Shown in pieces: positions 5,816 to 64,000 of a stretch of 64,000 nucleotides of DNA; the first letter of the stretch is position 1, and every line of letters begins with the position of its first letter. The stretch spans positions 1-64,000 of the forward strand of contig NZ_JAJQYA010000014.1 in assembly GCF_021729155.1 (NCBI RefSeq), written 5' to 3'. Both the position numbers and the translations under genes were made by a program. The DNA is from Membranihabitans marinus. GTDB taxonomy: Bacteria > Bacteroidota > Bacteroidia > Chitinophagales > Saprospiraceae. The notes below the pieces were generated by a model. It had not been told where the DNA came from, ran no database searches, and saw nothing but the letters and a program-made list of their open reading frames with translations.

Positions 5816-6061
5816 TTATAAACCAAATTCAATTAATCGAAGAATTAATAACATATGTATTTTATAATGCCTTTTAGGATTTTGAATGTCCGATCGAAAT
5901 GTAAAGCATCGAAGATCGTTAATCGACCTTCGGTGAGAACGACCGAAAGCTGTACGAAGTACCCAATCCATAAAATATGGATTGGATAATTTGTACTTCA
6001 TTCAATCATGCCTCTACATTAAATCATAATATAGCCGACAATTATAAATGTATTTAGTATA
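5816..6061. repeat. Degenerate MITE-like element with internal hairpins
   Basis: The right end (about 6033-6061) matches the MITE-like family end: GCCGACAATTATAAATG followed by a degraded TTTGGTA-like terminus. The left end near 5816 is uncertain. Inside are a 9-bp hairpin with one mismatch (5910-5918/5924-5932, loop TTAAT), a GTAC-GAA-GTAC hairpin (5952-5962), and a perfect 9-bp hairpin (5963-5971/5977-5985, left arm CCAATCCAT, loop AAAAT). The connector CGACCGAA precedes them, as in the array at 63811. No gene is supported in 5684-6394. Confidence 0.5.
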
Positions 6062-6064
6062 AAT

Positions 6065-6373
6065 TATACGATTTACATTTTATGATAACGGAAAAGATTT
6101 TGAAAATATTTGAAGATAGACGAGGCAAAAAACACAGGCATAGCCGTAGCTACGGTGTGATTGAGTAAAGTTGCCAGAATGGCAACCAAAGGTCGTAAAT
6201 CGACCTTTGACGAAGGAACCGAGGCCACTGTGCCGAGGCGTGATTGCCCTGGAATTCCTTGTTAAGATACTACCAGTATAGCATTACGTCTTAATCCACA
6301 ATATTTAAGCCGCAATGCATTGCGGCTCTACAATAGATCGAAAGATTTCCGTTAATTATAAATGTAATTCGTA
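6065..6373 (-). repeat. MITE-like element with nested hairpins
   Basis: Relative to the copy at 23086-23244 this element is reverse-complemented. The segments TTTTATGATAACGGAAAAG, TTTGAAAATATTTGAAG and GACGAGGCAAAAAACACAGG match that copy closely, and the far end (AATTATAAATGTAATTCGTA) matches the end at 71-90. The interior holds two abutting hairpins: 6170-6175/6181-6186 (GTTGCC) and 6187-6195/6201-6209 (arm CAAAGGTCG, loop TAAAT). A CACTGT-centred unit and a palindrome around GCAATGCATTGC (about 6312-6330) follow. It fills the gap between cysC and the flippase gene. Confidence 0.6.
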
Positions 6374-6394
6374 TTACTCCTCAAAATTGAATGG

Positions 6395-21429: not shown

Positions 21430-21570
21430 TTACCGAGGCGTTATCTTCTAATTATTTTTGATGACACGACCGAATGTAGTTCGAAGAACCGTAGACCTTA
21501 AATAGGTCTACGATGAGGGAGCCACGACCACTGTGTCGTGGGTGTGAACGAGCGAAATACGAAGTATAAT
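21430..21570. repeat. Hairpin module cluster upstream of repeat A1
   Basis: After the connector CGACCGAATGTA come three hairpins in a row: GTTC-GAA-GAAC (21479-21489); 9-bp arms CGTAGACCT around TAAAT (21490-21498/21504-21512); and 7-bp arms CCACGAC around CACTGT (about 21522-21541). A nearly identical copy occurs at 24853-24975. The order and loops equal those at 63811-63885, but the stems are different sequences. Confidence 0.7.
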
Positions 21571-21774
21571 TGTCAGAACATGATGGAAAACATGTTGTGA
21601 TATTCAAGATAATCCTAGCCCAAATCATAGACAGCATCTTGTTCACTCTTATCAGTCCTGTGGAGGATTCGTCCCACTTCGATAAAACTTCGAATCAAGA
21701 ACTTAGCCTCACCTAATTGGAATGCTGCATAGGCTATCGTGCTGATCATTCTATCTTACCAATCCTGTTCAGAC
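21571..21774. repeat. Repeat A, copy 1 (about 205 bp)
   Basis: The unit starts TGTCAGAACATGATGG and ends AATCCTGTTCAGAC. It also contains ATAGACAGCATCTTGTTC near its middle. It recurs at 21941, 24613, 25137, 25360 and 25731. The 3' half of this copy diverges from copy 2 and matches copy 7. No intact coding frame is shared by the copies. Confidence 0.8.
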
Positions 21775-21940
21775 CACTTTGCTTCGGCGTGGTTGCACCG
21801 TATGTCGATAGGATTTCATGGAATCTCGTCGCAGCGCAGTGGCTGCGACTTCTCTCGCCAGAGCCCGATTTACGGGCTCTGGTGCTGCGCACTTTGCTCG
21901 TTCACCCCGGCGTGTGAACGAGCAAAATACGTAGTATAAT
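21775..21940. repeat. Hairpin modules between repeats A1 and A2
   Basis: In reverse orientation to the 63.7-kb array, this spacer holds GTCGCAGC arms around GCAGTG (about 21833-21854), 10-bp arms CCAGAGCCCG around ATTTA (about 21862-21886), and 13-bp arms TTTGCTCGTTCAC closing over CCCGGCGT (about 21893-21926). GCAGTG and ATTTA are the complements of CACTGC and TAAAT, so the loop rule is kept. Confidence 0.65.
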
Positions 21941-22558: not shown

Positions 22559-23011
22559 ATGGGACAATCGCTTGTAAAAAACTATGTTCATATTATATTT
22601 AGTACCGAACATAGACAGCCTTTCATAAAACCTCCTTTTGATAATGAACTTCATCGTTATTTAGGAGGACTCTGTAACAAATTTGAGTGTCCTGTATTAA
22701 TAGTAGGGGGTCATATAGATCATATACATATCTTATGCATGTTATCAAAAAAGGTGGCTTTAATGAGCTTCATTCAAAAAATAAAGTCTAATTCTTCTAA
22801 ATGGATTAAATCGAAATATAAATCTCTTGATAATTTTTACTGGCAAGATGGATATGGAGCCTTTTCTGTATCTCCAGATGAAATAAAAGATACGATTGAT
22901 TACATAAAAAATCAGAAGCAACATCATTCAAAGATGAACTTCAAACAAGAATATATTACTTTTTTAAAAAAGTATAAATTAATTTACAAGGAGCCCTACG
23001 TTTGGGAATAG
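22559..23011 (+). CDS. IS200-like Y1 transposase / REP-associated tyrosine transposase
   Basis: This is a single-domain HUH endonuclease that would cut and join single-stranded DNA at hairpins. The HUH pair is His55 and His57 in GGHIDHIHIL, and the catalytic Tyr115 lies in DYIKNQKQHH, typical of IS200/RAYT proteins. The length of 150 residues is full for the family. There is no TnpB partner, and no clear left and right element ends beyond the REP-like hairpins around the start. Its last 30 or so codons and the following 115 bp are duplicated at 26083-26290. It is probably intact; the ATG follows a REP-like hairpin by about 10 bp. Confidence 0.87.
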   Translation: MGQSLVKNYVHIIFSTEHRQPFIKPPFDNELHRYLGGLCNKFECPVLIVGGHIDHIHILCMLSKKVALMSFIQKIKSNSSKWIKSKYKSLDNFYWQDGYGAFSVSPDEIKDTIDYIKNQKQHHSKMNFKQEYITFLKKYKLIYKEPYVWE

Positions 23012-24481: not shown

Positions 24482-24612
24482 TACGAAGTACATTTGTTCG
24501 GTCCGGCGTGATATTAATAAAATTTCATGATAATCTTTATTGGCATCAATGGATAAAAATTTCGATTTATGAAAATTAGATTTAGACGCAAGGCATTGCG
24601 TCTCTACGGAAT
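24482..24612. other. Spacer with a GCAA-loop palindrome
   Basis: Between the FemAB-like gene and repeat A4 is a short palindrome with arms AGACGCAA and TTGCGTCT around GGCA (about 24581-24600). Similar palindromes with other arms occur near 6312 and 26290 around TGCA. Nothing else is recognised. Confidence 0.5.
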
Positions 24613-24817
24613 TGTCAGAACACGATGGAAAAGATGTTGTGATATTCAAGATAATCCTAGCCCAAATCATAGACAGCATCTTGTTCAATATTATCAGTCC
24701 TGTGGAGGATTTGTCCTACTTCGATAAAACTTAGGATCAAGACCTTCTACAAAGTTCTGTGCAGCGACCTCAAAGATTATCTTGACCATCCTTTTATCTT
24801 ATTAATCCTGTTCAGAC
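24613..24817. repeat. Repeat A, copy 4
   Basis: A full copy, 205 bp, with TGTCAGAACACGATGG at its start and TTCAGAC at its end. It is followed by GGCTTCGGCGTGG and the hairpin cluster at 24853-24975, the same order as seen around copy 1. Confidence 0.8.
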
Positions 24818-24852
24818 AAAGGGCTTCGGCGTGGTTGCACCGTATGTCGTAA

Positions 24853-24975
24853 GCGAATTACGGAGGCGTTATCTTCTAATTAATTTTGACGACACGACCG
24901 AATGTAGTTCGAAGAACCGTAGACCTTAAATAGGTCTACGATGAGGGAACCACGACCACTGTGTCGTGGGTGGGT
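24853..24975. repeat. Hairpin module cluster, second copy
   Basis: Near-identical to 21430-21545: connector, GTTC-GAA-GAAC, 9-bp arms CGTAGACCT around TAAAT, and 7-bp arms CCACGAC around CACTGT. The few differences lie outside the stems (for example GATGACAC against GACGACAC). Confidence 0.7.
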
Positions 24976-24983
24976 AGGCCACC

Positions 24984-25136
24984 GTGCCGAGGCGTGATAA
25001 GAATATAATTTATCAAAATTTTGATTTCTGACATTCTAACAATTATTACGGGTACCAATTCTATTTTATCCACCCCCGCCTTTCAGGCAGTCCCGCCAAC
25101 GGGGGACATTAGAGCAACTTCATTCGTCGTATTAGT
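24984..25136. repeat. Repeat C, copy 1
   Basis: The unit starts GTGCCGAGGCGTGATAAG, continues through AATATAATTTATCAAAATTT and ATTACGGGTACCAATTC, and ends in a GC-rich palindrome: CCCCCG and CGGGGG closing over a segment containing CCTTTCAGGCAG. It occurs again at 25581 and 25951, each time placed before a repeat A or the transposase fragment. Confidence 0.75.
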
Positions 25137-25317
25137 TGTCAGAACATGATGGAAAAGATGTTGTGATATTCAAGATCATACGAGCCCCAAATCATAGACA
25201 GCATCTTGTTCAATATTATCAGTCCTGTGGAGTATTCGCTCTACTTCGACATCCATCTGTTCGGTGGCTTCAAAAATCATCTTGACCATCATTCTATCTT
25301 ATTAATCCTGTTCAGAC
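25137..25317. repeat. Repeat A, copy 5 (shorter form)
   Basis: A 181-bp copy with a different middle (ATCATACGAGCCCC instead of ATAATCCTAGCCC) and a short 3' half. It follows repeat C copy 1 without a gap. Confidence 0.75.
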
Positions 25318-25359
25318 AAAGGGCTCCGGCGTGTGAACGAGCGAAATACGAAGTATAAT

Positions 25360-25565
25360 TGTCAAAACACGATGGAAAACATGTTATGATATTCAAGATC
25401 ATACGAGCCCCAAATCATAGACAGCATCTTGTTCTCTCTTATCAGTTCTGTGGAGGATTCGTCCTACTTCGATAAAACTTAAGATCAAGACCTTCTACAA
25501 AGTCCTGTGCAGCGACCTCAAAGATTATCTAGACCATCCTTTTATCTTATTAATCCTGTTCAGAC
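25360..25565. repeat. Repeat A, copy 6
   Basis: A 206-bp copy joined to copy 5 by GTGTGAACGAGCGAAATACG, the same joiner that precedes copies 1 and 2. The 3' half is of the GTGCAGCGACC type. Confidence 0.75.
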
Positions 25566-25580
25566 CACTGTGCTCGTTCA

Positions 25581-25730
25581 CCGAGGCGTGATTGGAATAT
25601 AATTTATTAAAATTTTGATTTCTGACATTCGAACAATTATTACGGGTACCAATTCTATTATATCCACCCCCGCCTTTCAGGCAGTCCCGCCAACGGGGGA
25701 CATTAGAGCAACTTCATTCGTCGTATTAGT
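25581..25730. repeat. Repeat C, copy 2
   Basis: Same unit as 24984-25136, starting CCGAGGCGTGATTGG. It is followed directly by repeat A copy 7. Confidence 0.75.
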
Positions 25731-25935
25731 TGTCAGAACATGATGGAAAAGATGTTGTGATATTCAAGATCATACGAGCCCCAAATCATAGACAGCATCT
25801 TGTTCAATATTATCAGTCCTGTGGAGGATTTGTCCTACTTCGATAAAACTTCGAATCAAGAACTTAGCCTCACCTAATTGGAATGCTGCATAGGCTATCG
25901 TGCCGATCATTCTATCTTACCAATCCTGTTCAGAC
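25731..25935. repeat. Repeat A, copy 7
   Basis: The 5' half is of the copy 5 type and the 3' half of the copy 1 type (AACTTAGCCTCACCTAATTG). It is therefore a mosaic, which suggests recombination between copies. Confidence 0.75.
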
Positions 25936-25950
25936 CACTTTGCTCGTTCA

Positions 25951-26080
25951 CCGAGGCGTGATTGGAATATAATTTATTAAAATTTTGATTTCTGACATTC
26001 GAACAATTATTACGGGTACCAATTCTATTATATCCACCCCCGCCTTTCAGGCAGTCCCGCCAGCGGGGGACATTAGAGCA
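25951..26080. repeat. Repeat C, copy 3
   Basis: Identical in layout to copy 2 but broken at GAGCAAC. The sequence then continues with the 3' end of the transposase gene instead of repeat A. Confidence 0.7.
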
Positions 26081-26245
26081 ACATCATTTAAAGATGAACT
26101 TCAAACAAGAATATATTACTTTTTTAAAAAAGTATAAATTAAATTACAAGGAGCCCTACGTTTGGGAATAGTTATATCCTTCACTTCGACTTCGCTCAGT
26201 GCAGCGACCTCAAAGATTATCTTGACCATCCTTTTATTTTATTTA
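26081..26245 (+). pseudogene. 3' fragment of the Y1 transposase gene with its downstream flank
   Basis: From ACATCATTTAAAGATGAAC onward the sequence repeats 22919-23085 almost base for base: the last 30 or so transposase codons, the stop codon, and the partial repeat A. The 5' part of the gene, including the HUH motif, is missing. It is a dead copy made by segmental duplication rather than a new insertion, since the flank and the next MITE site were copied too. Confidence 0.8.
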
Positions 26246-26574
26246 TACCAAATACGTTTATAATTGTCGGTTATATTTCGATTTATTGTAGAGTTGCAAT
26301 GCATTGCATCTAAATTATTTTGAATAGAGACGTAATGTAGACAGCGGTACTGGTGCTATGCCGGCTTACCCACCCGAAACGCGGACACCCAACCCGGAGC
26401 ACAGTGGCTCCGGTTCCCTCGCCAAATGTCCATTAAGGACATTTGGTTGCTCTGAGGAGCAACCTCGCTCGGTCATCTTCATCAAAGGTCGATTTACGAC
26501 CTTTGGTTGCCCTAAAGGGCAACTACATTCAGTCATTCAAAAATCTTAACCGACATCATAAAACGTATTTGGTA
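26246..26574. repeat. MITE-like element with hairpin-array interior
   Basis: The ends are the same as those of the element at 23086-23244 and sit at the same point of the same duplicated flank, but the interior is different and longer. It carries five perfect hairpins: 26394-26413 (arm CCGGAGC, loop ACAGTG), 26422-26446 (CCAAATGTCC, ATTAA), 26445-26464 (GGTTGCTC, TGAG), 26483-26505 (CAAAGGTCG, ATTTA) and 26506-26523 (GTTGCCC, TAAA). No gene is present. A 64-codon frame inside it is a by-product of the palindromes. Confidence 0.75.
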
Positions 26575-26778
26575 TTAATCCTGTTCAGACAAAGGGCAAG
26601 AAATAGCAGCTCAATGTAATTCCTTTATTTTCACAAACATTACACTACAAAATTTACATCTACAAAAAAAAATCCCGATATTGCACCTACCCCCCTTGAG
26701 AAGTAAAATATTTCAAACAAAAGTTGAACCTCAATACCAAAAAACTATGGATATTGGTTCTCTATAGAAATTGTCTCT
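26575..26778 (+). promoter_or_regulatory. Leader region of the plus-strand polysaccharide locus
   Basis: After the tail of a repeat A copy (to about 26590) comes about 190 bp of AT-rich sequence without repeats, ahead of the first gene of the locus. A promoter is expected here, but no TAnnTTTG box with good spacing was found. Confidence 0.3.
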
Positions 26779-63569: not shown

Positions 63570-63660
63570 ACGGTGGAATGTGAGAAATCAAAATTGTGAT
63601 AAATGGATTCTGAGGATCTAGATTTTATTTATCTATAAGATATTTTTTATTAAGAAACAT
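63570..63660. other. AT-rich spacer before the hairpin array
   Basis: 91 bp without ORF or repeat, between the FemAB-like gene and the first hairpin unit. No terminator with a clear T run was seen. Confidence 0.4.
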
Positions 63661-64000
63661 ACTCACGCCTCGGTGAACGAGCAAAGTGCACGACTGAATA
63701 AAGTTGCTCTATTGAGCAACCAGATGAACTAAATGTTCATCTGATGAAGGAGCTATGACCACTGTGTCATGGGTGGGTAGGAGAGCCCGTAAATCGGGCT
63801 CTGGCGAGAACGACCGAATATAGTACAAAGTACCCAATCCATTAAATATGGATTGGATGAGGGAGCCGAGGTCACTGTACCTCGGGTGGGTTAGCCACTG
63901 CGCTGCGACGAGATTCCATGAAATTCGCTAACGATGGATGGGGCAGTCACGCCGGAGCAAGTGGCTCCGGTTCCCTCGCCATTGATCCATTTAGGATCAA
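63661..64000. repeat. Hairpin array with constant loops and changing stems
   Basis: About ten short hairpins follow each other. Arms and loops: 63703-63720 GTTGCTC/TATT; 63721-63743 CAGATGAAC/TAAAT; 63755-63770 ATGAC/CACTGT; 63782-63802 AGAGCCCG/TAAAT; 63823-63833 GTAC/AAA; 63834-63856 CCAATCCAT/TAAAT; 63866-63885 CCGAGGT/CACTGT; 63893-63904 AGC/CACTGC; 63952-63970 CCGGAGC/AAGTG; 63982-64000 TTGATCC/ATTTA, cut by the edge. All arms listed pair perfectly. Linkers such as GATGAAGGAGC, GATGAGGGAGC and CGACCGAATATA recur elsewhere in the window. Confidence 0.8.

Follow-up and report, generated by a model that had tools for sequence, protein, structure and literature searches.

REP, BIME and REPIN elements with their RAYT partners are short, high-copy, mostly intergenic palindromes arranged in mosaic arrays, and PMC3733652 describes some complementary stem variation among them too. 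The repeats described here share these traits and depart from REPs in their architecture: the unit is a three-way junction and not a single hairpin, its hairpin H2 is flanked by the 3′ arm of hairpin H1 and an RYGARG linker and lacks a constant GTAG/CGTC tag, its stems differ between genera while the loops stay and number 29 even within 1.88 Mb of one genome, and two carrier genomes, G015 and G067, are ones in which no Y1 gene was found. MITEs are likewise short, non-coding and dispersed, and some of our arrays lie inside a repeat with terminal inverted repeats, but the unit itself showed no terminal inverted repeats, and one recombinase site, with an inferred pre-insertion sequence, showed no target duplication. 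Integron attC sites are folded single-stranded DNA recognized by shape with variable sequence, and each consists of a single long, imperfect hairpin that bears core-site boxes and needs the integron integrase; the likeness to our element would lie in the shape-recognized, sequence-variable single strand and the difference in the single long hairpin with its boxes. In the organelle genomes of fungi and algae, double-hairpin elements and palindromes are mobile hairpin repeats with stem changes and in this respect resemble the present element, but they are organellar and we know of no three-way junction among them. DNA mini-hairpins with GNA or AAA loops, such as d(GCGAAGC) and d(GTACAAAGTAC), are known as in vitro structures and have the same loops as the short H1 of our unit, and we found no report in the open PMC literature of a genomic element built on them. 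Rfam and the open PMC literature yielded no prior description of the element itself. The usual definition of a dispersed bacterial repeat is its sequence; here the fold is what selection keeps. Our preferred reading, to which we assign a probability of about 0.6, is that the array at the end of the analysed DNA is a mosaic of a REP-like mobile element that acts as folded single-stranded DNA, with the fold under selection and with putative recognition letters.

The window, a 64,000-nt stretch of a Membranihabitans marinus contig, contains seven perfect hairpins with arms of at least 7 bp in positions 63661-64000, compared to a mean of 0.08 and a maximum of 2 when these 340 bases were dinucleotide-shuffled 500 times. 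Shorter or one-wobble hairpins such as 63823-63833 and 63753-63772 bring the number near the roughly ten hairpins counted in an earlier sequence-only reading, and the arms and loops named there are present in the sequence. The loops that it singled out also recur well beyond the array: across six whole contigs (1,373,546 bases, picked for holding hits), perfect 7-bp hairpins with a TAAAT loop number 85 versus 3, 1, 1, 2 and 1 in five shuffles, and those with a CACTGT loop number 24 versus 0 in each of five shuffles. The window hairpins are confirmed as real and far above chance. The draft of the source genome comprises 5,396,799 bases in 78 contigs, and many of our counts cover 1.88 of its 5.40 Mb; within these 1.88 Mb, TAAAT is the commonest loop among perfect hairpins with 5-nt loops (n = 161), followed by TTAAT (26) and TCAAT (13), both variants of the TAAAT loop. 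The multi-copy stretch extends past the window end to approximately position 64039.

These hairpins belong together in a single larger structure, a three-way junction of 53-61 nt composed of a closing helix with a tandem G·A step, hairpin H1 and hairpin H2. The flanks of 162 TAAAT hairpins follow a fixed grammar, in which the closing helix pairs C-Y-GA-R-Y opposite R-Y-GA-R-G, H2 has 9 bp and a T-N-A-A-T loop (typically TAAAT), and the unit is usually followed by a hairpin H3 (7 bp; loop CACTGT or CTCCGT, for example) and then GGGTGGG, with GTGGGT as another example of a G-rich tail behind H3. A linker-pattern scan identified 131 units, 89 of them distinct, each with a left linker of 13 nt and a right linker of 6 nt and with an H1 of 11 nt in 63 copies and of 17-18 nt in 68. 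Watson-Crick pairs connect the linkers at Y10:R1 in 129/131 units, at R9:Y2 in 122/131 and at Y6:R5 in 119/131, where the pattern preset the purine/pyrimidine classes and the GA letters and pairing was scored on the remaining free choices; each pair occurs in number as both A-T and G-C types. Between these pairs GA stands on both sides and reads as a tandem G·A step. Because the linkers pair around GA/GA, the unit is a three-way junction, and this pairing and covariation of the linkers is a feature absent from the earlier reading.

Covariation extends to most pairs of the unit. Across 41 distinct short-H1 units, 98.0% of 697 cells are paired, 15 of 17 pairs show double changes, and double-changed cells number 229 versus 74.8 after shuffling, counts that are not independent because the copies are kin to one another. 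The covariation score reaches 0.834 versus 0.258 in shuffled alignments and at most 0.174 in slid controls, in which only 24-42% of cells are paired. Strong covariation within one genome and across genera shows that selection acts on the fold, which upholds the earlier proposal of selection on single-stranded structure with conserved loops; the fold is kept in other genera. Energy folding of six strands recovered H2 and H3 in 6/6 and the H1 hairpin in 4/6, with 2/6 strands favoring another pairing of the H1 region. The G·A closing helix was not predicted by energy folding in the six strands tried, and it is covariation alone that points to it.

The window array is a mosaic of copies of this small dispersed element of some Saprospiraceae (Table 1). 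The copies are nested, with the unit at 63690 sitting within an outer unit whose uninterrupted relatives elsewhere in the genome read GTGAACGAGC..GTGC..GCACCAGAGCCCG.

Table 1. Element copies and their parts in the window, with the array at the window end listed first.
Feature	Positions	Strand	Evidence or remark
Outer unit, left part (left linker and H1 left arm)	63673..63689	+	Interrupted by the next unit, resumes at 63782; sequence
Three-way-junction unit 1	63690..63749	+	Hairpins and linker covariation
Unit 1 parts	Left linker 63690-63702; H1 63703-63720; H2 63721-63743; right linker 63744-63749	+	H1 7 bp; H2 9 bp, TAAAT
H3 of unit 1 and tail GTGGGTAGG	63750..63781	+	H3 63753-63772, CACTGT loop, one G·T pair
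Outer unit, remainder: AGAGCCCG-TAAAT-CGGGCTCT and right linker GCGAGA	63782..63809	+	
Three-way-junction unit 2	63810..63862	+	Covariance model R1 match, 68.3 bits
Unit 2 parts	H1 63823-63833; H2 63834-63856; right linker 63857-63862	+	H1 GTACAAAGTAC; H2 9 bp, TAAAT
H3 of unit 2 and tail GTGGGTTAG	63863..63894	+	H3 63866-63885, CACTGT
Right half of another H3-type hairpin (CCACTGCGCTGCGACGAG), left arm missing	63895..63912	+	Full forms elsewhere
H3 of minus-strand unit (CCGGAGC/GCTCCGG)	63952..63970	-	
Minus-strand unit, H2 stem CATTGATCC	63974..64000, on to contig position 64026	-	R1 match C5:63974-64026:-, 72.2 bits
Degraded unit, H2 stem CCAATCCAT	5941..5985	+	No matching right linker
Unit and H3; H1 GTTGCCA/TGGCAAC, H2 CAAAGGTCG	6157..6238	+	
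Further unit and H3; H1 GTTC-GAA-GAAC, H2 CGTAGACCT	21466..21544	+	
CAGAGCCCG hairpin and GTCGCAGC hairpin	21828..21882	-	
Unit and H3	24894..24977	+	Near-identical unit
Array: hairpins of two units (H2 stems CAAAGGTCG, CAAATGTCC) and one H3	26394..26523	-	

Stem sequences vary in a more orderly way than the sequence-only reading had supposed. It described the stems as free and the arms as unrelated between copies; stem variation is borne out, but the 161 perfect H2 copies with the right linker in 1.88 Mb reduce to 29 recurring stems, and 20 of these have a neighbor at one base-pair change versus 6.0 in a column-shuffled control. Its statement that both arms always change together does not hold, as 59 copies with one mismatch and 9 with two stand beside the 161 perfect ones. 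The one-mismatch copies represent 45 distinct stems, 3 of which bridge two stems both known in perfect form, and chimeric stems combine a left arm from one family with a right arm from another. Because the stems are linked step by step through single-mismatch intermediates, there is no need for the suggested mechanism in which one arm is rewritten as a copy of the other, and stem change is compensatory drift together with recombination. The contrast drawn with ordinary REPs was overstated, since complementary stem changes also occur in REP families according to PMC3733652.

Covariance model R1 gave at least 153 matches in the source genome and, in a sample of the family, matches in 8/120 genomes including the source. 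Model R2, for which matches from the source and from other genomes were combined, found 15/396 genomes in a sample of the order, including the source and all of them Saprospiraceae, and 1/395 in a sample of the phylum, which was the source itself. For samples of more than 40 genomes stricter filters lose weak matches and E-values are rough, and the family and order genome counts retain doubtful weak matches at L141 (G087, without the GA step), L144, L225, L227 and L236. A DNA search of 40 relatives found a match in 2/40 including the source, and scanning named genomes for the pattern turned up three loci, spread over two MAGs (Saprospiraceae, Saprospirales). Among 40 distinct foreign units (21 from G001, 10 from G015, 7 from G067 and one each from G100 and G096), Watson-Crick pairs are present at Y6:R5 in 34, at R9:Y2 in 35 and at Y10:R1 in 38, in units found and aligned by a model already containing these pairs. 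The G015 unit has an 11-bp H2, an H1 of TGC-GAA-GCA and linker pairs T-A, G-C and T-A, and one unit from G067, the MAG with contigs CALFUK010000050 and CALFUK010000124, consists of CTAC-GAA-GTAG and TGAATGCAC-TAAAT with the H3 loop CTCCGT, its stems entirely different. The same fold is present in other genera with differing stems, and there too the closing helix retains its GA/GA step and the loops retain specific letters. The repeat is a real, strongly structure-conserved dispersed element, found within a single bacterial family across the samples that were searched, and its fold matched nothing that we searched.

Within 1.88 Mb of the source genome, 229 units form 117 clusters, 54 of them single. 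Neighboring units have the same orientation in 96/112 cases, and a spacing of exactly 53 bp, seen for 24 same-direction neighbors, is the commonest tandem spacing. By a simple ORF finder with a coding fraction of 0.82, 193/229 units lie outside ORFs of at least 120 aa, and many of the called ORFs that contain the other 36/229 look like chance frames through arrays. Replication strand shows a weak bias, with the net element strand coinciding with the G-rich strand in 37/95 clusters (p 0.04, after 22/117 clusters with balanced orientation, a short flank or skew below 0.02 were dropped) and with 77/193 units on the G-rich strand. Copy number may be underestimated because several draft contigs end at elements; contigs end in or beside elements at C5:127471-127563, C33:8-60 and C9:91661.

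Mobility of the elements is well supported. Two serine-recombinase paralogs in G067 are interrupted by the element, and two others in the same genome have no insert there. Judged by eye, the interrupted genes lack about 14 nt of the uninterrupted sequence at the insertion point, with no visible target duplication at this one site, where the pre-insertion sequence can only be inferred because the uninterrupted paralogs, with one in-frame TGA each, are not clearly intact. The elements in the two insertions are identical at 86/87 positions, the adjacent 50 bases on either side match at 43/50 and 42/50 and a longer right side at 174/200, and the shared insertion point can be due either to independent insertion at one place or to gene conversion. 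At one pair of syntenic genes the element is present in G001 and, as read from this single site, absent in G000. Several copies in G001 share sequence beyond the unit, and the moving entity there may be larger than the unit. The left neighbors of 131 units, in a rough regex sort, include another unit in 36 cases, and 17/131 units begin directly where another unit's left linker and H1 left arm end; among 56 copies left unsorted and read by eye, some units start behind an H2 loop or behind the apex of an unrelated palindrome.

Under our preferred reading, in which a mobile element acts as a folded DNA single strand, the elements very probably are or were mobile and are preserved because the fold is selected, with letters of the loops and the junction as putative recognition sites for a protein or RNA and stems that most likely drift by paired changes. 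New copies would probably land preferentially at the apex of existing hairpins, in a landing that appears to replace some target bases and leave no obvious target duplication. Junctions located at hairpin apices, chimeric stems with arms from two families and the replaced target bases in the recombinase gene would also be expected with no dedicated machinery at all, if replication template switching or short-fragment illegitimate recombination occurred at hairpins and the stable fold were itself the cause, and three candidate enzymes were indeed not found in G015. We consider this account rather unlikely, since the closing helix, GA/GA and loop letters are kept across genera, which stability alone would not demand, and every match in the sampled genomes falls within one bacterial family.

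The loops of H1 are informative about the nucleic acid that folds. All 41 distinct short-H1 units have a GNA (37) or AAA (4) loop, and 20/28 distinct long H1 hairpins with 3-nt loops are again GNA or AAA, while other loops are found in long H1 hairpins and in several foreign H1. Tandem G·A pairs in DNA favor Py-GA-Pu contexts, and tandem G·A steps are found in RNA too. PMC4686876 and PMC6479982 describe GNA mini-hairpins in DNA as extraordinarily stable and nuclease-resistant, and d(GTACAAAGTAC), to which the H1 at window positions 63823-63833 is letter-identical, is a published DNA hairpin by a title in the reference list of PMC6479982. Both the DNA and RNA parameter sets of ViennaRNA returned the same value for all ten loops per set with no GNA bonus and were uninformative.

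A covarying three-way junction with conserved loops is typical of RNA families, and a structured regulatory or small RNA in high copy, with the fold selected in the transcript, is an alternative that we regard as unlikely. Some foreign H1 loops resemble RNA tetraloops by eye, namely CTTG (L194, L198) and C-GAAA-G (L221), both of which are known RNA tetraloops. However, the short H1 loops of the source genome are GNA or AAA, and none of its 20 distinct units with 4-nt H1 loops (7 loop sequences) has a GNRA or UNCG loop. No Rfam 15 family reached its gathering score in the window, and a search of 63600-64000 (401 bases) with E up to 10 gave a best E of 0.86-0.95, which is chance level. Nor is G·U clearly in excess over A·C, as mismatches are G·T in 41 cases versus A·C in 29 (p 0.19), marking neither strand; a strand call from this ratio, which an early by-eye tally of 12:3 had placed toward the plus strand, was given up when the count fell to 41:29. 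The upstream gene is co-oriented with the unit in 73/135 cases (near neutral) and the downstream gene in 45/135 (mostly opposed), counts from a simple ORF finder in which units are not independent, and copies lie inside genes and inside one another. We hold it moderately more likely that the acting form is folded single-stranded DNA than RNA. If the folded strand is DNA, the element would represent a natural use of hyperstable DNA mini-hairpins and offer a covariation-based route to DNA elements recognized by shape.

A Y1_Tnp (IS200-like) gene lies among the arrays at window positions 22559-23011, with a 3′ fragment of it at 26076-26168. Its location, together with mosaic palindromic arrays that are largely intergenic (193/229 units outside ORFs), would suit ordinary REP/BIME elements moved by this RAYT-like transposase, but that explanation is improbable: Y1_Tnp matches were found in 3/5 carriers (G000, G001, G100) and not in G015 or G067, drafts that may miss genes and that both hold many copies, the constant GTAG/CGTC tag is missing at the foot of H2, and stem sequence is not conserved. 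The window gene moreover has different, CGTC-type palindromes beside it, GTCCTTTCAGGAC (22206, 22272) and CCTGAAAGGG (22538), which agree with the CGTC repeats described, Bacteroidetes included, in PMC3733652; the CGTC-type palindrome GTCC[TC]T[TC]CAGGAC was matched 57 times in 1.88 Mb. Many hairpins within 300 bp could in principle be transcription terminators or inverted repeats that arose by chance, but this account can be dismissed in practice, as the loop counts are 85 versus 1-3 and 24 versus 0 in shuffles, no T-run stands behind the window-array hairpins, and linkers and loops are conserved.

The reverse-transcriptase family RVT_1 matched in 4/8 genomes, in three above cut-off, with no match in G000, G015, G099 or G349 (drafts that may miss genes), and Y2_Tnp matched in G002 only (1/8 genomes). 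By these family searches, Y1/RAYT, Y2 and reverse-transcriptase enzymes are unsupported as general mobilizers. Returning to the mobile single-stranded DNA element that we favor, a narrower and tentative version of it is an element defined by its three-dimensional single-strand fold and not by sequence (three-way junction, GNA/AAA triloops, tandem sheared G·A helix), with a putative family-specific enzyme inserting at hairpin apices. Such a putative mobilizer is a concrete target, and G015 is a carrier in which family searches found neither Y1, Y2 nor reverse-transcriptase matches.

Several other repeats and genes accompany the elements. A repeat with terminal inverted repeats (TAATACGAATTACATTTTATAATGACGGAAAAGATTTCGA and reverse-complement variants) often frames arrays, in the window at 6064-6380 and 26225-26580 and in many clusters, and is a possible MITE acting as a landing site. 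By eye, a repeat of about 200 bp (ATTGTCAGAACATGATGGAAAACATGTTGTG ... AATCCTGTTCAGACAAAGGGC) has several copies between arrays, at window positions 21579-21650, 24610-24830 and 25130-25950. By eye, elements at L229 (G051), L235 (G100) and L224 (G069) also neighbor tRNA-Asp genes or follow a partial copy of tRNA-Asp; ARAGORN called one tRNA-Asp in L229, one in L235 and none in L224, whose flanks merely resemble tRNA remnants. Tandem units at L226 (G375) carry an extra insert, CTGTA[AG]GACGGTGCCTACTGGATAAATC, in their H3 loops. Judged by translations only, window positions 7000-62000 read largely as a surface-polysaccharide gene cluster, with sugar epimerases, UDP-sugar dehydrogenases, glycosyltransferases, flippases and three MBOAT-like acyltransferases.
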